Positions 44,540 to 57,583 of a DNA stretch of 64,000 nucleotides are shown piece after piece. The stretch comes from Chryseobacterium binzhouense (GTDB lineage Bacteria > Bacteroidota > Bacteroidia > Flavobacteriales > Weeksellaceae). A program made the position numbers and the translations under genes. Below the pieces are notes generated by a model. The model had not been told where the DNA came from, did not search any database, and saw only the letters and a list, made by a program, of their open reading frames with translations. The stretch lies in the NCBI RefSeq assembly GCF_007474545.1, contig NZ_VKOG01000007.1:62001-126000 (forward strand), in the 5' to 3' direction. The number at the start of each line of letters is the position of its first letter. Position 1 is the stretch's first letter.

Positions 44540-46213
44540 ATGGAAACTTCTCCTAAACAGCACGGTTACAATCTTTTTAAGTACGTTACTAAAGAGAAGA
44601 AAGATGTTACCAATATATATTTTTATGCCATTCTGAACGGTTTGGTACAACTTAGTGTTCCGCTTGGGATTCAATCAATTGTGAGTTTTGTAATGGGAGC
44701 CACAATGGCAACATCCATTTATATTCTGATAGGATTTGTAGTTTTGGGAACGTGGCTTGTAGGATATTTCAGGCTGAAAGTAATGCAGATTATAGAAAAA
44801 ATTCAGCAAAAGATTTTTGTTGAATTTTCCATTGCCTTTGCAGAAAAGCTCCCTAAGGTCAATCTTTCAGCCACAAGAAAATATTATCTTCCCGAATTGG
44901 TTAACCGTTTTTTTGATACACAAAACCTCCAGAAAGGAATCTCTAAAATCTTACTTGAAATTCCGACAGCACTAATCCAGATTTTCTTTGGAATTTTACT
45001 GTTGTCTTTCTATCATCCGTGGTTTTTGGTTTTTGGTGCACTAGTTGTGATTTGTGTAATTGTAATCTTTAGGTTTACAATGGAAAGTGGTATCCAATCA
45101 AGTATCGAAGAAAGTGATAAAAAATACGAAGTAGCATCCTGGATTGAAGATATTGCAGCGTCTATCAAAACATTCAAACTCAATTCCAAGACAGAAATTC
45201 ATCTTGCAGGAACCGATGAGAGAGTGGTAAAATATCTTAATGGACGTACAAAACATTTCAGAGTCTTGGTTTTCCAATACAAAACAATTATTGCCTTTAA
45301 GGTCATCATTACATTGGTAATGCTCGCAATTGGAACTTACCTTCTCGTTAATCAACAGCTGAATATTGGTGCTTTCATTGCAACAGAGATTGTAGTTTTG
45401 AGTATCATGATGGCGGTTGAAAAGCTTATCATAAGTCTGGAAAGCTATTATGACGTAATTGCATCACTGGCAAAACTGAATAAAGTAACAGATCTGCCGG
45501 AAGAAAATATGGGAGCCATCAATTTTGAAGAAGAAAATGTCGGTTTTGAAATTGAATTTCGGGATGTAAATTTCGCATTCAACGATTATCAGAAAATTTT
45601 GGAAAATGTTAATTTTAAAATCTCTGAAAATAGCATTAATATCGTTACGGGAGAATTGGGTGCAGGAAAATCGCTACTGCTTAATATGATGACAGGATTT
45701 TATGAGCCAAGTTTCGGAAGTATATTATTTGATAAAATTCCAATTAAAAATATCGACAGAATATCGCTGAGAAATCAGATAGGAATGTATCTTGAAGACA
45801 TGACGATCATTAAGGGAACTGTTTATGAAAACATCATTCTCGGTCACAATGAGACATCTGCCGAACAAATTCTGGATATTTCCGAAGAAATAGGAATTGA
45901 AAACTTCTCAAGCCAGTTCAGCAACGGTTTCTTCACCAACATCAGTGAGACTGATACGGAAATATCATTCAGCTCCAAAAAGAAAATCCTGCTTCTGAGA
46001 GCAGTAGTTGGTGCAAGGAGACTATTAATTCTGGAAGATCCTTTAGACGGAATGAATGATGAATTTAAAATAAAAATGAGAGACTATCTCTTGAAACTGA
46101 AAGAAAACACTACCATCATTATTGTTTCGAAAGATGAAAGTCTCATCAATGATGCTGATCAACATCTACATATAGAAGACGGAACGGTGAAAATTTTATT
46201 TAATAAACATTAA
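44540..46213 (+). CDS. ABC transporter with a degenerate ATPase domain
   Basis: A 557-residue half-transporter: about six membrane helices (residues 25-300) and a C-terminal nucleotide-binding domain. Walker A is intact (GELGAGKS, 371-378), as is the Q loop (RNQIGMYLED). The signature LSGGQ is replaced by ISFSS (475-479), Walker B reads LILED with Asp and Glu swapped (Glu499, Asp500), and the H-loop His is Lys531. There is no C39 peptidase domain. With HlyD and TolC partners downstream it resembles a type I secretion or efflux system. Whether it hydrolyses ATP normally is doubtful. Confidence 0.85.
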   Translation: METSPKQHGYNLFKYVTKEKKDVTNIYFYAILNGLVQLSVPLGIQSIVSFVMGATMATSIYILIGFVVLGTWLVGYFRLKVMQIIEKIQQKIFVEFSIAFAEKLPKVNLSATRKYYLPELVNRFFDTQNLQKGISKILLEIPTALIQIFFGILLLSFYHPWFLVFGALVVICVIVIFRFTMESGIQSSIEESDKKYEVASWIEDIAASIKTFKLNSKTEIHLAGTDERVVKYLNGRTKHFRVLVFQYKTIIAFKVIITLVMLAIGTYLLVNQQLNIGAFIATEIVVLSIMMAVEKLIISLESYYDVIASLAKLNKVTDLPEENMGAINFEEENVGFEIEFRDVNFAFNDYQKILENVNFKISENSINIVTGELGAGKSLLLNMMTGFYEPSFGSILFDKIPIKNIDRISLRNQIGMYLEDMTIIKGTVYENIILGHNETSAEQILDISEEIGIENFSSQFSNGFFTNISETDTEISFSSKKKILLLRAVVGARRLLILEDPLDGMNDEFKIKMRDYLLKLKENTTIIIVSKDESLINDADQHLHIEDGTVKILFNKH

Positions 46214-46217
46214 GACA

Positions 46218-47534
46218 ATGAAACTGCAATCAGTAGATAAAATATATCTTATCAATAAAGAATCCCGAGTGAAAAGATGGTTTCTTTTCATCCTTCTTGG
46301 CGGTATTATCGTTTTATTTTTACCTTGGACGCAAAATATCCAGGTTAAAGGAAATGTAAGCACGCTTTATCAGGAACAGCGTCCGCAGCAAATGAACTCA
46401 CCAATTCCTGGAAGAATCATCAAATGGTATGTAAAAAACGGTGATTATGTAAAAAAAGGAGATACCATTCTTCAGCTTTCCGAAGTAAAAGAAGATTATC
46501 TGGATCCGCTCTTGGTTAAACGAACCGAGCAGCAGGTAGAGGCAAAAAAAGGAGTAAGAGATTATTACGAAGCCAAAGTAGGAACTACAAACAGTCAGAT
46601 TGACGCACTGAACTCTGCAAGAGATCTGAAACTGAGCCAGCTTAAAGTAAAAATAAGCCAGCTGAACAACAAATTAGAAGGTGAAGAAGCGGAATTACAG
46701 GCTGCAAGAAATGAGCTTCGAATGTCTGCTGACCAATATGACCGACAGAAAAAAATGTATGATGAAGGCTTGGTTTCACTCACACAGTTCCAGCAAAGAA
46801 GTGTTTCTTACCAAAATGCTTTGGCAAAGAAAACATCCATTGAAAATAAACTCGCTCAAACAAGACAGGAAATTGTAAACGTAAGCATTGAGCAGAATGC
46901 AACTATTCAGGATTATAATGAGAAACTAAGCAAAACGGAAGGTGACAGATTCCAGAGTATGGGACAAATTGAAGGCAGTGACGGCGATATTGCCAAACTT
47001 GAGAATCAGGTTGCCAATTACAGAGCAAGACAAGGTCTGTATTTCGTAATTGCTTCGCAGGATGGTCAGGTTGTACAGATCAATAAAGCTGGAATCGGTG
47101 AAATCCTTAAAGACGGTGAAAGTATAGGAGTAATTGTTCCTGAAAATGTAGATTATGCAGTAGAAATTTACATTAAACCCGTTGATTTGCCTTTGGTAAA
47201 AGAAGGACAGCGTGTGATGTGTATCTTTGATGGTTTTCCGGCAATTGTATTTTCGGGATGGCCCAACTCAAGCTACGGAACTTTTGCAGGGAAAGTAATT
47301 GCTGTAGAAAGCAACATCAGTACAAATGGTTTGTTTAAAGCACTTGTCATTCAGGATAAAGATGAAAAACAATGGCCGCCAAAAATTAAGATAGGAACCG
47401 GTGTTCAGGGAATTGCTATTTTAAATGATGTGCCGATCTGGTACGAATTGTGGCGAAACATCAACGGGTTCCCGCCTGATTATTACGAAGTGAACACAAC
47501 TGATAAATCTGCAGGAAATGAAAAAAGTAAATAA
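46218..47534 (+). CDS. HlyD family periplasmic adaptor
   Basis: A 438-residue membrane fusion protein with one N-terminal membrane segment (about 22-38), two half lipoyl motifs (MNSPIPGRIIKWYVKNGDYV near 65 and VIASQDGQVVQINKAGIGE near 280), and a long alpha-helical hairpin between them (about 95-265) with many Gln, Lys and Glu. It bridges the ABC protein and the TolC-like channel. It lies 4 bp behind the ABC gene and overlaps the TolC gene by 17 bp. Confidence 0.92.
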   Translation: MKLQSVDKIYLINKESRVKRWFLFILLGGIIVLFLPWTQNIQVKGNVSTLYQEQRPQQMNSPIPGRIIKWYVKNGDYVKKGDTILQLSEVKEDYLDPLLVKRTEQQVEAKKGVRDYYEAKVGTTNSQIDALNSARDLKLSQLKVKISQLNNKLEGEEAELQAARNELRMSADQYDRQKKMYDEGLVSLTQFQQRSVSYQNALAKKTSIENKLAQTRQEIVNVSIEQNATIQDYNEKLSKTEGDRFQSMGQIEGSDGDIAKLENQVANYRARQGLYFVIASQDGQVVQINKAGIGEILKDGESIGVIVPENVDYAVEIYIKPVDLPLVKEGQRVMCIFDGFPAIVFSGWPNSSYGTFAGKVIAVESNISTNGLFKALVIQDKDEKQWPPKIKIGTGVQGIAILNDVPIWYELWRNINGFPPDYYEVNTTDKSAGNEKSK

Positions 47535-48924
47535 ATTATTTCCAGCTTTTCTAATTCTGTTTTCTATCCAGTTTTCTTTTGCGCAGGATTCTCTGAAACT
47601 GTCGCATCAGGAGTTTATGAATATTGTTAAAAATTACCATCCGTTAGCTTTCAAATATCAGCTTCAAAACAGGATTGCCAGAGAAGAGATTACCAGCGCC
47701 AGAGGAAATTTCGATCCTGTAATTGCTGGAAAACTGGGCGAAAAAAATATTGACGGGACAAGATATTATTCCCAGAGAAATATTGAACTTGGTATTCCCA
47801 CATGGTACGGGATAGACATTACAGGAAGCTACAATTATCTGGAAGGTCAAAAACTCAACAGCAGCGAAACACCGGGCGGGTTATACCAGTTCGGAATTAC
47901 AGTTCCGTTAGCCAAAAATCTTTTGTATGACCGAAGAAGAGCCATGCTGGATCAGGCGAAATTCGGGTTGAGAATGACAGAAGCAGAACAGACGGTACTT
48001 ACCAACGAACTTCTTTTAGATGCAGAAAATACGTTCTGGGAATGGGTAAAAAATTATGAAATATATAAGCTGCAAAAATCTGCCGTTCAGATCAATAGAA
48101 AACGTCTGGATCTAACAAAAAAAACATACGAGTTTGGCGAAAGACCGGCAATTGATACTGTTGAAGCCGCATCTCAGCTGCAGAGTTTTGAACTTCAGGA
48201 ACGGGATGCTTTTTTGAACTTTGTAAAAAGTACCCAAGATTTGCAGATGTTTCTCTGGAAAGAAAATCAGGAATTCTATGAAATTTCACAGCTCATTTTC
48301 CCATCATCAAGTCTGGATGAGCATTCAGGGTACAATGATTATGAGTTCCTGGTAGAAAACGTAAAATCCAGACAGGTGGAAAATCATGCGTCATTGGAGT
48401 ATTATTTTCAGAAACAAAACATTCTGGAAAGTGAACGGCGACTGAAATGGCAGAGCTTTCTTCCTAAAATAGATTTTACCTACAATTTTTTTAACAAAGA
48501 AAATTACAGACCAGATTATCTTCCTTTTTTTGATAATAATTTTCAATACGGACTAAAACTGGAAATTCCTGTTTTCATGCGTCAGGCAAGAGCCGATTAC
48601 CAGATTGCCAAACTGAAAATTTCGCAAAACCAACAGGATTCGCAGCTGAAATTTCGAGAAATTAATACAAAAATTGAAACTTACAGAAACGAAGTAAGCA
48701 ATTATTTTACCCAGATTGATATTTCATCCCAGAACCTCAACAATTATGAGCGACTATTAAACGCTGAGGAAACAAGGTTCAGCAACGGTGAAAGTTCCTT
48801 ATTTCTCATCAACTCAAGGGAAAACAAATTATTGGAAGCCCGTGAAAAAAACCTGGATCTGAAAGCCAAATTTCTAAAAAGCTATAACAAACTAAAATGG
48901 CTTAACGAGAATTTTTTAAGATAA
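47518..48924 (+). CDS. TolC family outer membrane channel
   Basis: A 468-residue outer membrane efflux protein with a signal peptide (MKKVNKLFPAFLILFSIQFSFAQ), two OEP repeats rich in helical coiled coil (about 25-230 and 265-460), and short barrel-like segments (WYGIDITGSYNYLEG; FQYGLKLEIPVFM). It completes the ABC-HlyD-TolC system encoded upstream, with which it is translationally coupled. Confidence 0.92.
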   Translation: MKKVNKLFPAFLILFSIQFSFAQDSLKLSHQEFMNIVKNYHPLAFKYQLQNRIAREEITSARGNFDPVIAGKLGEKNIDGTRYYSQRNIELGIPTWYGIDITGSYNYLEGQKLNSSETPGGLYQFGITVPLAKNLLYDRRRAMLDQAKFGLRMTEAEQTVLTNELLLDAENTFWEWVKNYEIYKLQKSAVQINRKRLDLTKKTYEFGERPAIDTVEAASQLQSFELQERDAFLNFVKSTQDLQMFLWKENQEFYEISQLIFPSSSLDEHSGYNDYEFLVENVKSRQVENHASLEYYFQKQNILESERRLKWQSFLPKIDFTYNFFNKENYRPDYLPFFDNNFQYGLKLEIPVFMRQARADYQIAKLKISQNQQDSQLKFREINTKIETYRNEVSNYFTQIDISSQNLNNYERLLNAEETRFSNGESSLFLINSRENKLLEAREKNLDLKAKFLKSYNKLKWLNENFLR

Positions 48925-49919: not shown

Positions 49920-51476
49920 TCAGTTGGTCGTCATATCTGTCTTCCATTTGTACCAGTCATCAAGAAAATAGTCCAAAACTACAGGATTATCTATGGTATT
50001 GATCTTTGTGGAAACAATGCTGATGTCTTTAGGAAGTTCAAATGAATTGATAAAAACATTTTCGGTAAGAAATTTCAGATTCTCGGGAATTTTGCGATGT
50101 TTTTTTTCGTTAAAATCAGTATTTTTTGCAATAGTATACCCCCAATATCCAAAAGAAGGCACGTAAACCTGATAGGTTTTGGTATAATTAAAAATAGAAC
50201 TCACCGTATTTTTAATACAGCTGAAAGCCGTGTTAGAATAATACACTTCTCCGGACTGCGTTACAAAAACTCCGTCTGCTTTCAGATTTCTTTTGGCAAG
50301 ACCAAAAAACTGTTTGCTGTAAAGTTTTGCAATGGCATCAACAGAAGGATCAGGTAAATCTGCAATGATGACATCATATTCCTTAATATTGTTTTTCAGA
50401 AAAGTAAAAGCGTCATCAGCAACCAGATTTACTTTAGGATTCAGAGAAGCTTTATCATTTATTTTTAGAAGATGTTTATTTTTTTTTGACAAATCGAACA
50501 TCATCTGATCTATATCTACCACATCAACACTCTTCACAGTAGGGTGCTTCAGAACTTCCCGACTCGCCAGATTTTCACCGCCTCCAAGAATTAAAATATT
50601 TTCAGGATTATCATGAATCAGTAACGGAACGTGAACCAGCATTTCATGATAACGGTATTCATCTTTAGAGCTGAACTGTATTGAGCGGTTTAAAAAAAGC
50701 TTTACATCATCATTATTTTTTGTAATGACAATTTTCTGGTACGGTGTCTGAATGTTTTCTACAATCGGACTTTTATATATTTTTTCTTCCCATACTTTAA
50801 GCATTGATCCTGTAGTGACGACCATTACAATAAGAAAAGCCAAAACGAAAATTCCGAAATAAAAAGTTTTGTTTCTTTTCTTTAATAATTTCTGACTCAG
50901 CCAAAGCCCCAATACAATATTCACAATCCCAAAAAGAAGTGATGAATAAAACAGACCTACAAAAGGAAGCAGAATAAAAGGAAAAATAAGGGTGGCAATA
51001 AGCCCACCAATATAATCCAGCGACAAAAAATTGGAAAGATTATCCTTATATTCTTCACTTTCATTCATAAAGGTAAGAAGCGGCACCTCCATTCCCGTAA
51101 TTAATCCGATAAAAAACATGATCACCAGACAAAAAGCCTGTAATACTCCCGGACTTACATTCACAAAAAGAAAATAAAGAAGAGGAACTGAAATTCCGCC
51201 TATTAAACCCAAAATGACTTCAATAAAAACAAAAAAATCCAATGGCTTTTCTTTGAAAAATTTTGATAAATAAGCCCCAATTCCCATTGAAAACATATAA
51301 ACACCTATGAGAATAGAAAACTGCATTACCCCATTACCAAGGAAGTACGTTGCAGTAGCACTGATGAGCAGCTCGTAAATAATTGAGCATAATCCTGCAA
51401 CAAAAACTGAAAAAGCTAAAATTTTTATTTTCGGTTTCAAAATAATCTTTATATTTGATTTTAAACTTATTTCCAA
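49920..51476 (-). CDS. Membrane-bound spermidine synthase-like protein
   Basis: A 518-residue fusion of seven to eight N-terminal membrane segments (to about residue 215) with a SpeE-type aminopropyltransferase domain. The domain shows YQKIVITKNNDDVKLFLN, the SAM-site ILILGGGENLASREV, VDVVDIDQMM, and the catalytic segment YDVIIADLPDPS. It would transfer aminopropyl from decarboxylated SAM to a diamine. The start is uncertain: TTG 51476 is the furthest upstream candidate and TTG 51440 is an alternative; no ATG fits. It is divergent from the lipoprotein gene starting at 51479. The AdoMet decarboxylase that would feed it lies at 53798. Confidence 0.88.
   Translation of the reverse strand: MEISLKSNIKIILKPKIKILAFSVFVAGLCSIIYELLISATATYFLGNGVMQFSILIGVYMFSMGIGAYLSKFFKEKPLDFFVFIEVILGLIGGISVPLLYFLFVNVSPGVLQAFCLVIMFFIGLITGMEVPLLTFMNESEEYKDNLSNFLSLDYIGGLIATLIFPFILLPFVGLFYSSLLFGIVNIVLGLWLSQKLLKKRNKTFYFGIFVLAFLIVMVVTTGSMLKVWEEKIYKSPIVENIQTPYQKIVITKNNDDVKLFLNRSIQFSSKDEYRYHEMLVHVPLLIHDNPENILILGGGENLASREVLKHPTVKSVDVVDIDQMMFDLSKKNKHLLKINDKASLNPKVNLVADDAFTFLKNNIKEYDVIIADLPDPSVDAIAKLYSKQFFGLAKRNLKADGVFVTQSGEVYYSNTAFSCIKNTVSSIFNYTKTYQVYVPSFGYWGYTIAKNTDFNEKKHRKIPENLKFLTENVFINSFELPKDISIVSTKINTIDNPVVLDYFLDDWYKWKTDMTTN
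51450..51457 (+). promoter_or_regulatory. -7 box for the YgiB-like lipoprotein gene, inside the divergent synthase gene
   Basis: TATATTTG, 21 nt before ATG 51479. It lies within the first codons of the opposite-strand synthase gene. A weaker minus-strand box, CATATTTG (51474-51481), overlaps the synthase TTG start. Confidence 0.5.
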
Positions 51477-51478
51477 AT

Positions 51479-52042
51479 ATGAAGAAAAATTCTTTTACTA
51501 TTTCTATATTTTGTAAAAAAAATATTCTCTTCCCGGTAATGGCATTCAGCCTGCTTAGTTTACAAAGCTGCGGCGGAGACGGGAGTCCCAGAATTAAAGA
51601 CGGTGAATCGGTTACCATTAAAGAATCATCCAAAGGAACAGTTACCGAGGTTGAAGAAGTAAAACCCGGTGATGATTTTAAAATTATTGATGAAAAAATC
51701 ATTGACGATAAAACGAAATCTACCGCAATAGTACATTATCTCAACGGAAAAACAGACACCCTGTCTCTTCAGAAACTGAAAAGTGAGTCACAATCCGGCA
51801 ACCACACTCATTCAGCACTCAGAGGAGTATTAATGTATTCGCTTGCTTCTGCATTCTTCAGCAGAAATCTCGCCAACACAACTCCCAATTCAAGCTATTA
51901 CAAAAGTGCAGATGCATATAACAAATCTACCGGTCTGAAAAATGATATGGTAAAAACAGCAACCTCCCGCAGAGTAATGACTCCGGGAAGAGCATCCAGA
52001 GGATACGGCGCAGGAAAATCTTTCAGATCTTATGGAGGATAA
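51479..52042 (+). CDS. YgiB/DUF1190-like lipoprotein with a C-terminal Gly-Gly tail
   Basis: A 187-residue lipoprotein with an extended signal region and lipobox SLQSC (Cys31). After an acidic, beta-like segment (residues 40-100) comes a weakly hydrophobic stretch (LRGVLMYSLASAFFSRNLA), a Tyr/Ser-rich segment (SSYYKSADAYNKSTGLKND) and a basic Arg/Gly/Ser tail ending SFRSYGG. This plan, down to the final Gly-Gly, is like E. coli YgiB (DUF1190) as I recall it. The stop overlaps the ligase start by 11 bp, as ygiB and ygiC are neighbours in E. coli. The ATG at 51479 is preferred over one at 51455, which overlaps the -7 box. Confidence 0.75.
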   Translation: MKKNSFTISIFCKKNILFPVMAFSLLSLQSCGGDGSPRIKDGESVTIKESSKGTVTEVEEVKPGDDFKIIDEKIIDDKTKSTAIVHYLNGKTDTLSLQKLKSESQSGNHTHSALRGVLMYSLASAFFSRNLANTTPNSSYYKSADAYNKSTGLKNDMVKTATSRRVMTPGRASRGYGAGKSFRSYGG

Positions 52043-53180
52043 CAGGTTTCAGGAAATAAAAAAGATCCGCAAAAAAGATATGCCGGTTCAGCTGCAGTGG
52101 TTTGCAGATGAAGATTATCTGTTTGAAGAAGTATTGGGTCTTCATACTTCTGAGGTCAGCAAATTTACCTTCATCGCACAGGAAGCGTATTCAGTTTTTG
52201 AAAAAGCGACTGATAAAATCATTCGGGACAGAAATCTCCATCTTTTGGATATCCCGCAGTTTTTCCATGGAATCATTGAAAAAACATGGAATGACAGAAA
52301 AAAGCATCCTCTTTTGTACGGAAGATTTGACATCAATGGCGGAATTGATGAAAGAAACGCAAAAGTTATCGAATTCAATGCAGACACCTGCTCAACTCTC
52401 CCTGAAACCATTTTATGGCAAAAACTTCAGCTGGAACATATCAAATCTCCGATGGGGCAGTTGAATAGACTGGAGCGCGATCTTGAAAGCACACTTTCAG
52501 ATCTTAAGAAAAATATCCCGTACGAAAAACCCTATTTTTTGGCATCTTCATTTGGTCACAAAGAAGACAGGCTCAACTGTGATATGGTTCTGAACGCTGC
52601 GTATAAAGCAGGTTATGATGTTTTTTATACTGATTTGGAAAAAGTAACATTTTCTGACGAAGGCATTTTCTTTGAAATTGGCGGAGAGTTTCAGCCTGTA
52701 GATGTCTGGTTTAAAATGGTTCCGTGGGACTGGATGTTCAACGAAGAACCTGAACTCGCAAAGCTGCTTATCGAAATTATTGAAAAAGATCTGGCAATTA
52801 TTCTTAATCCTCCATACACCGCTGTATGGCAGAATAAATTATTTCTGAATTACATTACCCAGCATTTCCCCAATACTTTTATTGCAGAAACTTACGACAG
52901 TTCTTCCTTTCTTGCAGGAAAAGACTATGTAGAAAAACCTGTTTACGGAAGAATGGGAGAAAATGTAAAAATTGTGCATAAAAACATTCAGTCTGAAGGA
53001 GATTTTGCAGGACAGAAAAAAATCTATCAGCGATATTATCCTTTAGATAAGGATCGGGAAAACTACTATTATCAGGCAGGCATTTTTTATACTTTCCAGC
53101 CATCTGCCATTAATTTCAGAGCAGAAAACAGAGAAATCATTACCAATAATTGTGAATTTGTATCACATTATATCATTTAA
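52032..53180 (+). CDS. YgiC/glutathionylspermidine synthase-like ATP-grasp ligase
   Basis: A 382-residue enzyme of the glutathionylspermidine synthase C-terminal family. The substrate/ATP motifs are visible: GRFDINGG (97-104), then KVIEFNADTCSTLPET (111-126) with Glu114, Asn116 and Asp118, VWFKMVPWDWMF (225-236), ILNPPYTAVWQNKLFL (257-272) and EKPVYGRMGENV (301-312). The family forms amide bonds between a carboxylate and an amine such as spermidine. The N-terminal amidase domain of full GspS is absent, as in YgiC. It overlaps the YgiB-like gene by 11 bp, which points to that lipoprotein as its substrate (inference). Confidence 0.9.
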   Translation: MEDNRFQEIKKIRKKDMPVQLQWFADEDYLFEEVLGLHTSEVSKFTFIAQEAYSVFEKATDKIIRDRNLHLLDIPQFFHGIIEKTWNDRKKHPLLYGRFDINGGIDERNAKVIEFNADTCSTLPETILWQKLQLEHIKSPMGQLNRLERDLESTLSDLKKNIPYEKPYFLASSFGHKEDRLNCDMVLNAAYKAGYDVFYTDLEKVTFSDEGIFFEIGGEFQPVDVWFKMVPWDWMFNEEPELAKLLIEIIEKDLAIILNPPYTAVWQNKLFLNYITQHFPNTFIAETYDSSSFLAGKDYVEKPVYGRMGENVKIVHKNIQSEGDFAGQKKIYQRYYPLDKDRENYYYQAGIFYTFQPSAINFRAENREIITNNCEFVSHYII

Positions 53181-53190
53181 AATTAAAAAC

Positions 53191-53796
53191 ATGAAAAATA
53201 TATTCTTAATACTTTTTGCAGCCTTTGCATTGTGTTCCTGCGGAAAAGGAAGTGTAGATCTTGCTATTGATAATCCTACCGATCATTCAATAATTGTAAA
53301 AGTAGACACCCTTACAGTAGAAGTTCCCGCAAAAGAAGTGGTATGGGTAGAAATGGGAAAAGGTGAACATCTTATAACCTTGGAAGACAATACTAAAACA
53401 AAATACAATTTTACCCAGAATGCCTATTTTCTTAATCCGACCAGAAATGAATATCTGAAAACTGAAGAATTCTATGGAAGTCCTTCTTTTCAGAACAGTT
53501 ATGCGCATAAACTTCCCAATAAAAAAATAGAATTTTACGGAATGCCGCTTGAAGGAAATTTCGATGTGGTAAAAGACCTTATCAATCCTATCTCATGGGA
53601 TTACGGACCGAGAGAAGAGCTGCCGGAAATGCTTGAAATGGAAGAACAATATGAGGTTATGGTCAAATTATATGACCTGAATGAGTTTGCCAACTTAATT
53701 ACCAGAGCGTCTGAAGAAGCACAACTCAACAGCGAAGATTCAATATCTTCCGACAGCATCAATGCAGCGCCGCCCGTAAGCCAATCTACCAACTAA
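53191..53796 (+). CDS. Lipoprotein of unknown family in the polyamine cluster
   Basis: A 201-residue lipoprotein: MKNIFLILFAAFALCSC gives a signal peptide with Cys17 as the lipid site. The frame is open from 53152, but only the ATG at 53191 leads into a signal peptide. The first half looks beta-rich (VDLAIDNPTDHSIIVKVDTL, then an EVVWVEMGKGEH turn), and the C-terminus is acidic and Ser/Pro-rich. No known family is recognised. It is packed between the ligase (10 bp) and the AdoMet decarboxylase gene (1 bp), so it is very likely part of the same pathway. Confidence 0.8.
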   Translation: MKNIFLILFAAFALCSCGKGSVDLAIDNPTDHSIIVKVDTLTVEVPAKEVVWVEMGKGEHLITLEDNTKTKYNFTQNAYFLNPTRNEYLKTEEFYGSPSFQNSYAHKLPNKKIEFYGMPLEGNFDVVKDLINPISWDYGPREELPEMLEMEEQYEVMVKLYDLNEFANLITRASEEAQLNSEDSISSDSINAAPPVSQSTN

Positions 53797-53797
53797 T

Positions 53798-54181
53798 ATG
53801 ATTTCAGATTATCATACCATCGGCTACCATACGATTTGGGATATTTACGGATGTAATATTCAGAAGTCATCTTTTGTTCCGGAAATAAAAATAATTCTCA
53901 ACAAAGTTGTTGAAGAGTTAAAGTTGGGGAAAGTGCAGGAAGCATATAAACAGTTTCAGCCATTTGGTGCAACAGGCTTTATCTTGTTGGAAGAAAGCCA
54001 CATCAGCATTCATACATGGCCAGAAAAAGAGTTTGCTGCAATAGATGTATTTTCCTGTAAGCCTTTTGATACGGAAAAAATTAATTCTATTTTAAAAGAT
54101 TTTTTTGAAACTGACGAGATCAATACGAAGGTCATTACAAGAGGTGAACTTACCAGGATGAAAACTGCAAGTCCGAACTGA
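53798..54181 (+). CDS. speD: S-adenosylmethionine decarboxylase proenzyme-like protein
   Basis: A 127-residue class 1b AdoMet decarboxylase. The self-cleavage site is Glu66-Ser67 in LEESHISIHTWPEKEFAAID; Ser67 would become the pyruvoyl group, with His72 and Cys87 at the +5 and +20 positions as in the Thermotoga enzyme (Ser63, His68, Cys83). It makes the aminopropyl donor used by the synthase encoded at 49920-51476. Last gene of the lipoprotein-ligase-lipoprotein-speD run. Confidence 0.92.
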   Translation: MISDYHTIGYHTIWDIYGCNIQKSSFVPEIKIILNKVVEELKLGKVQEAYKQFQPFGATGFILLEESHISIHTWPEKEFAAIDVFSCKPFDTEKINSILKDFFETDEINTKVITRGELTRMKTASPN

Positions 54182-56534: not shown

Positions 56535-57177
56535 ACCTGAGTTCGGGATAAGAAAAGTGAATAAAATTTTCATAAAATAGCAATAATTCGTATATTTAAG
56601 TTTCTGACATTCAAATATTTAAACGAATTACTGCTATGGATTTGAAAGACCAAATTACAAATATTTTTGTACAAATTGATGATTTTTGTAAGGAGTTTGA
56701 GGTTTTATGGCTTCAAATTACATCTGGTATGCAATGAAAAAGGGGAACTTTTATCCTTCTATGTAACGAAAGGAAATGTTGACGACAGAGATCTTAAGCA
56801 CATTAAGAGTATGACCATGCAGCTTTTTGGAAAATTATTTGCAGATAAAGGATACCTTTCAAAAGCCCTTTGGGAGGTGCTTTTTGCAGATGGAATTCAA
56901 CTATTTACAAAACTTAGAAAGAATATGAAAAATCATATTATGAAAATGGAAGACAAGATTTTGCTTAGAAAAAGAGCCATCATTGAGACTATAAATGATG
57001 AATTAAAAAACCATTGTCAAGTAGAACATACCAGACATCGAAGTGTTAATAATTTTATGATCAACATTTTGGGAGCACTAACTGCTTATTGCTTCTTTCC
57101 CAAAAAACCGTCACTCAATTTAAAAAAAGTAAATGACGGTCAATTATTTTTAAACTTCGCTTAAACCGAACTCAGGT
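56535..57177 (+). mobile_element. IS982-family element, internally deleted (643 bp)
   Basis: Terminal inverted repeats begin ACCTGAGTTCGG at both ends (12 identical bp, then TAAG after two mismatches). The element is flanked by the perfect 8-bp duplication TATATTTA. The transposase inside lacks its central part, so the element is about two thirds of the roughly 1 kb usual for IS982 and cannot move on its own. Family assignment rests on the transposase C-terminus and is from memory. Confidence 0.85.
56636..57164 (+). pseudogene. IS982-type transposase, central deletion
   Basis: ATG 56636 starts MDLKDQITNIFVQIDDFCKEF, the typical N-terminus. After about 22 codons the sequence jumps, in another frame, to FYGFKLHLVCNEKGEL (from about 56701) and runs to the stop at 57164 with LFADKGYLSKALW, KILLRKRAIIETINDELKN and HRSVNNFMINILGALTAYCF. 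The lost part, roughly 110 codons, includes the first catalytic Asp. Not functional. Confidence 0.85.
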
Positions 57178-57185
57178 TATATTTA
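57178..57185. repeat. Target site duplication, right copy
   Basis: TATATTTA, identical to 56527-56534. Confidence 0.9.
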
Positions 57186-57583
57186 CCTAAAGAGGAAAGG
57201 TGGCTGCCATCTTCATTGCTGAATTTGGGTTGGTCTTTTGACTCGTCTTTGCTCCATGAGTTTATTCCGCAGCCGTGACCAACAAGATAATTTCCCAGCG
57301 TTTTCTGGCTTTTAAAATCCCACACTATAAACCTGTTGACTCCCGAATGGAGGCTCATATCAATCAGGATGCAGATTTCAGTGCTTAGTTTTTTAGACTT
57401 AGCAAATTCCAAAGCCTCATTTGCTTTGTTTGTTGTTTTAACTAAATCAATACTTGGTTTTTCCAGTTCTGCAATACTGGCGTCTTCAAAAACTATTTTT
57501 TTCTGAGTATTGATAAGCTGATCTTTTGTGCATGATAAAAGCACTAAAGAAAATATGATAATAAAATATGACTTTAAGATCAT

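Follow-up and report, generated by a model that had tools for sequence, protein, structure and literature searches.

A flavobacterial gene cluster with a membrane spermidine synthase homologue, a GspS-like ligase and a Gly-Gly-ended lipoprotein that may build a C-terminal polyamine tip

Two gene pairs of Escherichia coli, ygiB-ygiC and yjfM-yjfC, place an ATP-grasp ligase right after a partner gene whose product ends in Gly-Gly (SRSMGG in YgiB and ARGHWGG in YjfM). The RefSeq name of both YgiC and YjfC is peptide--spermidine ligase, a naming that reportedly goes back to Pederick et al. 2023. The same ATP-grasp domain, PF03738, is found in the bifunctional GspSA, and GspS joins spermidine to the C-terminal glycine carboxylate of glutathione. 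YgiC is said to be without GspS activity in a passage of PMC12506659 that cites Sui et al. 2012. A second kind of gene cluster, found in the sections of PMC11237479 (the PSP paper) available to us, combines a membrane spermidine-synthase-like protein of NCBIfam NF002956 (mSpeE), usually SpeD, DUF350 and DUF4178 proteins and a lipoprotein or small transmembrane (TM) partner; these sections describe both mSpeE/DUF350/lipoprotein and ligase/DUF1190/DUF350 gene groups, and raise polyamine sensing or 'aminopropylation of other substrates' for mSpeE, citing Li et al. 2019. In eukaryotes, as described in the available part of PMC12270671, a spermidine amide is likewise formed on the C-terminal Gly-Gly of SUMO and ubiquitin, but by E1/E2 enzymes; the system is unrelated and its proteins are not membrane proteins. 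Here we analyse a five-gene cluster of Chryseobacterium binzhouense that holds both an mSpeE and a GspS-like ligase. It lies in a stretch of 64,000 nt, which as a whole is called the window (contig NZ_VKOG01000007.1 of assembly GCF_007474545.1, positions 62,001-126,000, forward strand). Our results suggest that the lipoprotein encoded between these two enzymes, LP1, probably carries a C-terminal polyamine tip with an aminopropyl part, built by the cluster.

The cluster consists of the gene for mSpeE, a membrane spermidine-synthase-like aminopropyltransferase, on the reverse strand (49920..51440), followed on the forward strand by those for LP1 (51479..52042), an ATP-grasp GspS-like amide ligase that we propose to be a peptide-polyamine ligase (52032..53180), a second lipoprotein, LP2 (53191..53796), and SpeD, a class 1b AdoMet decarboxylase and the source of decarboxylated AdoMet (53798..54181). 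A sequence-only reading of the window had described these five packed genes, and the gene order, the 11-bp overlap of LP1 with the ligase, the 10-bp gap between ligase and LP2 and the 1-bp gap between LP2 and SpeD are all exact. Doubt falls on one part of that description, the divergent starts 2 bp apart. The longest mSpeE frame does run to the TTG at 51476, but the mSpeE genes of relatives start 43-51 bp from LP1 (an ATG at 51 bp in L033-L038 and a start at 43 bp in L092; the gap is 12 in L039, since its called LP1 frame starts early). Because the alignment with these relatives matches the TTG at 51440, this codon, which leaves a 38-bp gap, is more likely the start in the window.

A neighbourhood search across Bacteroidota found the gene set in relatives as well. 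We defined 13 window-type loci, namely the window, G406, G064, G158 and nine loci from a ligase scan of GTDB contigs (Chryseobacterium echinoideorum, Flavobacterium sp., Cellulophaga, Maribacter and Winogradskyella). The core of mSpeE, LP1, ligase and SpeD is present in all 13, in Weeksellaceae, Flavobacteriaceae and a third family (f5), while LP2 is present in 10 and missing from G064, G158 and G406. Because these four genes recur together in 13 loci, with their content kept even where the SpeD-LP2 pair is inverted onto the other strand (seven loci, L033-L039), their co-location exceeds chance. The window shares with the E. coli pairs the homologous ligase behind a Gly-Gly-ended partner, and differs from them in adding SpeD and mSpeE, in having no DUF350 neighbour and in an LP1 without a DUF1190 match. 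With the mSpeE/SpeD/DUF350/DUF4178 clusters it shares mSpeE, SpeD and a lipoprotein partner; it differs in lacking DUF350, DUF4178 and amine-oxidase-like genes and in having a Gly-Gly partner with a ligase in place of a Lys-ended one. By tblastn, none of these three kinds of gene was found in the 13 loci (DUF350 queries long and short; DUF350 and DUF4178 at E <= 1e-3, the query labels checked with Pfam), and no nucleotide relatives were found on plasmids or phages. In the open-licence PMC literature we found no description of mSpeE, SpeD, a GspS-like ligase and an LP1-type protein together in flavobacteria, nor of the rule of endings presented below, although subscription papers may hold part of the latter, the Gly-Gly ending above all.

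The earlier assignment of the ligase to the GspS/YgiC kind is confirmed. This 382-aa protein, which has the synthetase part only, matches PF03738 (GSP_synth) at 223 bits (cut-off 29.3) and is homologous to YjfC (E 1e-23) and YgiC (E 2e-19) at 23-24% identity. Alignment with YjfC (7uk6), YgiC (7uk8) and GspS (3o98) and a set of 17 sequences that includes the E. coli enzymes reveals that R98, D100, E114, N116, K269, K302, R307 and R363 are invariant, and we take their catalytic roles to be those of the corresponding residues of GspS. It differs from GspSA in that the amidase half is absent, and it scores 81.8 bits against the bifunctional model NF007801 (cut-off 882). By analogy, the ligase would act on the C-terminal glycine of LP1. 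Matches to PF03738 occur in 33 of 392 Bacteroidota genomes. Within the window's own family, Weeksellaceae, 47 of 198 genomes match the ligase, strongly only in the window genome and G406; the other 45 show 26-30% identity among the matches listed. Ligases of this 26-30% type sit after small lipoproteins, and SpeD is absent in the two same-genus genomes with such a ligase that were searched (G095 and G277). At the Chryseobacterium-type loci L083-L099, two small lipoproteins often stand ahead of the YgiC-like ligase; the first mostly ends like ITVQ, ITVK or VTIQ and the second in RASS, SASS or SVSS, and both look conserved almost to the last residue.

LP1 has the features expected of an acceptor for such a ligase. 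LP1 and LP2 both have lipobox-like cysteines, read by eye; in LP1 the lipobox is ..LQSC with the cysteine at residue 31, and a tail rich in R, S, G and aromatic residues leads to the end ..KSFRSYGG. The last two glycine codons (52034..52039, forward strand) are the proposed acyl site of the ligase, in view of their conservation and of the like ends of YgiB and YjfM: LP1 ends in S(Y/F/H)GG in 13 of 13 window-type loci. In a wider LP1 family of six sequences the ends are GFGG (four), SSGS and FSG, so that the last residue is G or S in all six. In architecture and in its Gly-Gly tail LP1 does resemble YgiB, as the sequence-only reading proposed, but it is not a detectable DUF1190 member, giving no Pfam or NCBIfam DUF1190 match at E <= 0.1 where the control, YgiB, gives 187 bits. 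Of the 392 Bacteroidota genomes, nine match the LP1 profile strongly (E <= 6e-48) and four weakly. The nine and the weakly matching G096 all carry a ligase about 30% or more identical to that of the window; the other three weak matches (G176, G266 and G342), in genomes with no PF03738 match, are probably due to chance. In G249 a single contig carries both LP1 and ligase, separated by about 1.4 Mb assuming circularity, and therefore the LP1-ligase link is not purely positional. No LP1 relatives were found on plasmids by tblastn. In G096 (locus L107) a 515-aa protein ending in GRGGG stands in the place of LP1 beside the ligase, and the contig also carries a soluble SpeE and SpeD at a distance of about 11 kb. 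LP2 has a conserved body and a C-terminus that is not conserved (8 sequences).

All the ligase partners that we found have a small last residue, which in window-type and proteobacterial loci is mostly Gly, and an RGG(F/Y/L)G-like stretch often precedes the end. At 20 further Bacteroidota loci with a YgiC-like or A-like ligase the partner ends in SS (15 loci), GA, HA, HA, GS or GGG, the partners in L089 and L094 being recognised by the tail motif only. Eleven plasmid ligase loci, taken among 50 listed of 158 records, gave a partner in eight, seven ending in GG and one in GS (those of L163 and L166 were found by a filter requiring a final G, S, A or K), and no partner was found in L159, L162 and L168. 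The distant PF03738 loci L074 and L077-L082, whose ligase frame was not found by BLAST, stand outside this count.

Where mSpeE stands without a ligase, the partner ends in Lys. A Lys-ended membrane protein or lipoprotein was found in 24 of 24 such loci among the 392 genomes (23 from genomes that lack a ligase, plus the second locus of G166) and in 7 of 7 plasmid loci (Ensifer, Gemmatirosa, Burkholderia, Tritonibacter, two Novosphingobium and Alteromonas; 7 of the 8 rows with at least 95% coverage among 50 listed of 76 records, many of them of other families), and none of these 31 loci has a ligase match. Examples of the endings are RYYHK, RFYHK, SYHHK, GPSHK, FRHGK, LRGGK and GGFGK. For five held-out loci (G184, G066, G311, G336 and G005) the prediction was fixed beforehand and 5 of 5 end in Lys, four of the proteins being members of a single, previously encountered family. 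Together, the 31 proteins form 12 single-linkage families; with a background of C-terminal Lys in 15.9% of 681 called frames of at least 200 aa, the naive odds for 12 such families are about 3e-10, a figure for families partly chosen by their ending, three of them with over-long starts, at loci that are not independent. Knowledge of the Lys ending guided the choice of partner in L134, L136, L141, L142, L144, L147, L153 and L154; L154 has two hydrophobic frames with a final Lys, and the one taken is encoded on the opposite strand about 3 kb away from mSpeE. For L143 and L145 the partner came from full small-frame lists once the pattern had been recognised. A rule of position alone, taking the frame that ends just upstream of DUF350 or mSpeE, gives a Lys end in 24 of the 29 loci scored, chance frames included (two of the 31 were not scored). 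At L141:7195-8589 and L172:4760-5464 the Lys tail and hydrophobic segment form the C-terminus of a longer protein, the partner being fused to its neighbour, which is DUF4178-like in L172 and in L141 stands in the DUF4178 position with no similarity detected. The genome G166 has both systems at separate loci, each with its own ending, and where ligase and mSpeE occur together the partner ends in Gly-Gly, following the ligase. To look for a hidden Lys tail, the window-type loci were scanned for hydrophobic frames bearing the Lys endings known from other loci; 0 of 13 had one.

The ligase-free mSpeE loci mostly hold SpeD, DUF4178 and DUF350. A frequent addition is an amine-oxidase-like FAD protein (PF01593, 28.5 bits against a cut-off of 19.8) with a Tat-like signal by eye; outside the cytosol, this enzyme could convert an aminopropyl tip into the aldehyde. 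This protein lies at L133:7299-8888, with homologues in L134-L142, L144, L146, L153, L154, L156 and L157; those of L141 and L156 have an apparent Tat-like and lipobox signal.

The window mSpeE matches PF01564 at 164 bits and NF002956 at 536.5 bits (cut-off 472) over residues 18-511, TM segments included, and scores 178 bits against the SpeE equivalog TIGR00417, under its cut-off of 249.55. Seven hydrophobic segments precede the spermidine synthase (SpdSyn) domain in 31 sequences, and positive residues are concentrated on the loops of the N-terminal side (mean 10.9 versus 0.8, in 31 of 31 sequences). From this hydropathy and charge pattern the N-terminus is predicted to be inside and the catalytic domain outside the cytosol, on the side that also receives lipoprotein tails; decarboxylated AdoMet would then have to cross, perhaps via the TM domain. 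The Tyr-His, Asp-x-x-Asp and Gln of SpdSyn, examined as a test of putrescine versus protein as acceptor, are all retained in the alignment, and their roles are presumably those known in SpdSyn. Full-length mSpeE (>380 bits) occurs in 27 of the 392 genomes, four of which also carry an A-type ligase, at a separate locus in G166; among 197 genomes of the class of G336 the full-length matches are G212, G184, G066 and G336, all in the earlier sample. In a tree of 32 mSpeE rows a single change between endings suffices, and the nine ligase-linked rows fall in one starred clade (100/100), which takes in two rows of the Lys-tail kind as well, L132 and Ensifer. The simplest reading is therefore that the partner ending may have switched from Lys to Gly-Gly.

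SpeD matches PF02675 at 100 bits and TIGR03330 at 100.5 bits (cut-off 75.65). Its Ser67, His72 and Cys87 align with S63, H68 and C83 of the Thermotoga maritima AdoMet decarboxylase as numbered in the available part of PMC10407285, so the earlier claim of an intact motif stands. That part of the paper also names four residues diagnostic of an ornithine decarboxylase group; a pyruvoyl ornithine or arginine decarboxylase was considered for SpeD and appears unlikely, the AdoMet decarboxylase cut-off being passed. Among 50 chosen genomes, SpeD occurs in 28 of 28 with mSpeE (the 27 and G406) and in 1 of 22 without, the one being G096, which has a soluble SpeE. Of the 24 Lys-type loci from the 392 genomes, 19 have SpeD at the locus itself, as do 6 of the 7 plasmid loci. 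The window genome has one PF02675/SpeD match (E <= 0.001) and a single match to the mSpeE profile, a profile that picks up soluble SpeE too. Nothing in this genome passes the NspC cut-off, which 4 of the 40 genomes tested do pass, and agmatine deiminase gives no match; a short arginine-decarboxylase-like protein far under the speA cut-off and a deoxyhypusine-synthase-family protein are present. On this gene content, putrescine-type amines seem plausible in this organism.

We suggest that the tip would be built in three steps. The cytosolic ligase would activate the C-terminal Gly carboxylate of LP1 and form an amide to an amine, on the model of GspS with glutathione and of YgiC and YjfC, which are reported with peptides. 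SpeD would supply decarboxylated AdoMet, and mSpeE would add the aminopropyl part, either to the free amine ahead of ligation or to the ligated diamine. LP1 would then expose this cationic end to the periplasm or at the cell surface, and LP2 may be an accessory. A Lys side chain consists of four methylenes and an amine; with one aminopropyl group it has the spermidine skeleton, and a putrescine amide of Gly with one aminopropyl group has the same end as aminopropylated Lys. Because both give the same end, action of mSpeE on a protein-bound amine is preferred for both kinds of cluster. Tentatively, we favour an order in which LP1 reaches the membrane with its ligated diamine and mSpeE then acts on that diamine. 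With similar caution, we speculate that NF002956 enzymes in general may be protein modifiers that aminopropylate a tail amine, in most clusters a C-terminal Lys, which would gain a spermidine-like side chain, and in the window type a diamine added to Gly by the ligase, probably outside the cytosol, and that the Gly-Gly protein and its ligase replaced the Lys protein when the two systems merged. As part of that proposal, an encoded Lys and a ligase-added diamine might be two routes to one polyamine tip.

Several observations weigh against this proposal. The topology of mSpeE is a prediction from hydropathy and charges, the Gly-Gly branch of its tree has weak support (78/46) and the root is a midpoint. 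The ATP-dependent ligase would have to act before LP1 is exported, which is awkward. Gly is not universal, since the partners of the common Chryseobacterium-type ligases end in SS; at the distant PF03738 loci L073, L075 and L076, which were not counted, no such partner was seen. A final Lys by itself is common: within the window-type loci it also occurs on LP2 in L033, on mSpeE in seven loci and on SpeD in five. LP1 and ligase occur without a SpeD or mSpeE-profile match in G072, G190, G249, G355 and G367, so aminopropylation is not needed for the pair as such, and G190, G249 and G355 have NspC, another spermidine route. SpeD lies away from mSpeE in 5 of 24 Lys-type loci: in G323 the distance is about 0.2 Mb, and in G005, G066, G087 and G336 SpeD is in one frame with a soluble SpeE, apart from mSpeE, and may therefore serve free spermidine there.

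The alternative that survives best, though we regard it as rather unlikely, is the order of the sequence-only reading, in which mSpeE first converts putrescine into free spermidine or a similar triamine, for the ligase to attach to LP1 afterwards. The E. coli ligases are named for spermidine, the SpdSyn residues are kept in mSpeE, and mSpeE and SpeD are the sole profile matches in a genome with no NspC over the cut-off, which would make mSpeE its spermidine source. Membrane SpeE fusions of this kind, however, reportedly failed to replace SpeE or to act as spermidine synthase in the work of Li et al. 2019. The catalytic domain is moreover predicted to be extracytoplasmic, and partners end in Lys in all 31 other mSpeE loci examined; the 24 of these in the genome sample indicate a protein acceptor. 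Of the earlier proposal, a polyamine joined to the lipoprotein is supported by the ligase homology and by the Gly-Gly end of LP1 in 13 of 13 loci, but free spermidine made by mSpeE is not supported. It is considerably less probable that mSpeE aminopropylates a membrane lipid or other small molecule and that the ligase-LP1 pair is merely co-regulated. The TM domain could bind a lipid, and the pair does occur without SpeD and mSpeE in five f9 and f10 genomes, but this leaves unexplained why Gly-Gly replaces Lys beside a ligase and mSpeE. Equally improbable, in our view, is that the Lys and Gly-Gly ends stay unmodified, serving protein contacts or membrane binding while the enzymes act elsewhere: cationic R/S/G-rich tails could bind anionic lipid or lipopolysaccharide as they are, but the last residue tracks the enzyme present, ligase or mSpeE alone, over 12 Lys-ended families. 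Least probable is a ubiquitin-like coupling of the LP1 Gly-Gly to protein or envelope amines rather than to a polyamine, which a Gly-Gly tail with ATP-grasp chemistry would allow and for which SUMO, ending in LGG, offers a precedent in being coupled both to lysines and to spermidine (available part of PMC12270671), but the enzyme is of GspS type with relatives named for spermidine, and no E1/E2-like partner was noticed in the loci, though none was searched for.

The surroundings of the cluster can be described briefly. It is flanked by an alpha/beta hydrolase gene and htpG, which in C. echinoideorum (L031) is adjoined by a 220-aa frame. The -7 promoter consensus of Bacteroidota is TAnnTTTG, and a script pattern fitting it, TATATTTG, lies at 51450..51457 on the forward strand, 21 bp before the LP1 start; it is also present upstream of LP1 in L031, and TATGTTTG in L032, L035 and L039, which is weak evidence for a promoter. 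Upstream, at 44540-48924, are frames that by eye are ABC-transporter-, HlyD- and TolC-like, the second and third of which are matched in length and ending by frames of C. echinoideorum. Downstream, a DDE transposase-like frame (56667-57164) abuts an L,D-transpeptidase-like YkuD_2 gene (57161-57583) that covers only profile positions 9-91 of 169 and looks shortened there.

In summary, the ending rule, Lys without a ligase and Gly-Gly with one, names concrete candidate acceptors for the membrane spermidine synthases. If the proposal is true, it would mean a C-terminal polyamine modification of bacterial envelope proteins, chemically close to deoxyhypusine and to the SUMO-spermidine conjugate, and it would give the YgiB/YgiC and YjfM/YjfC pairs of E. 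coli a likely physiological substrate.

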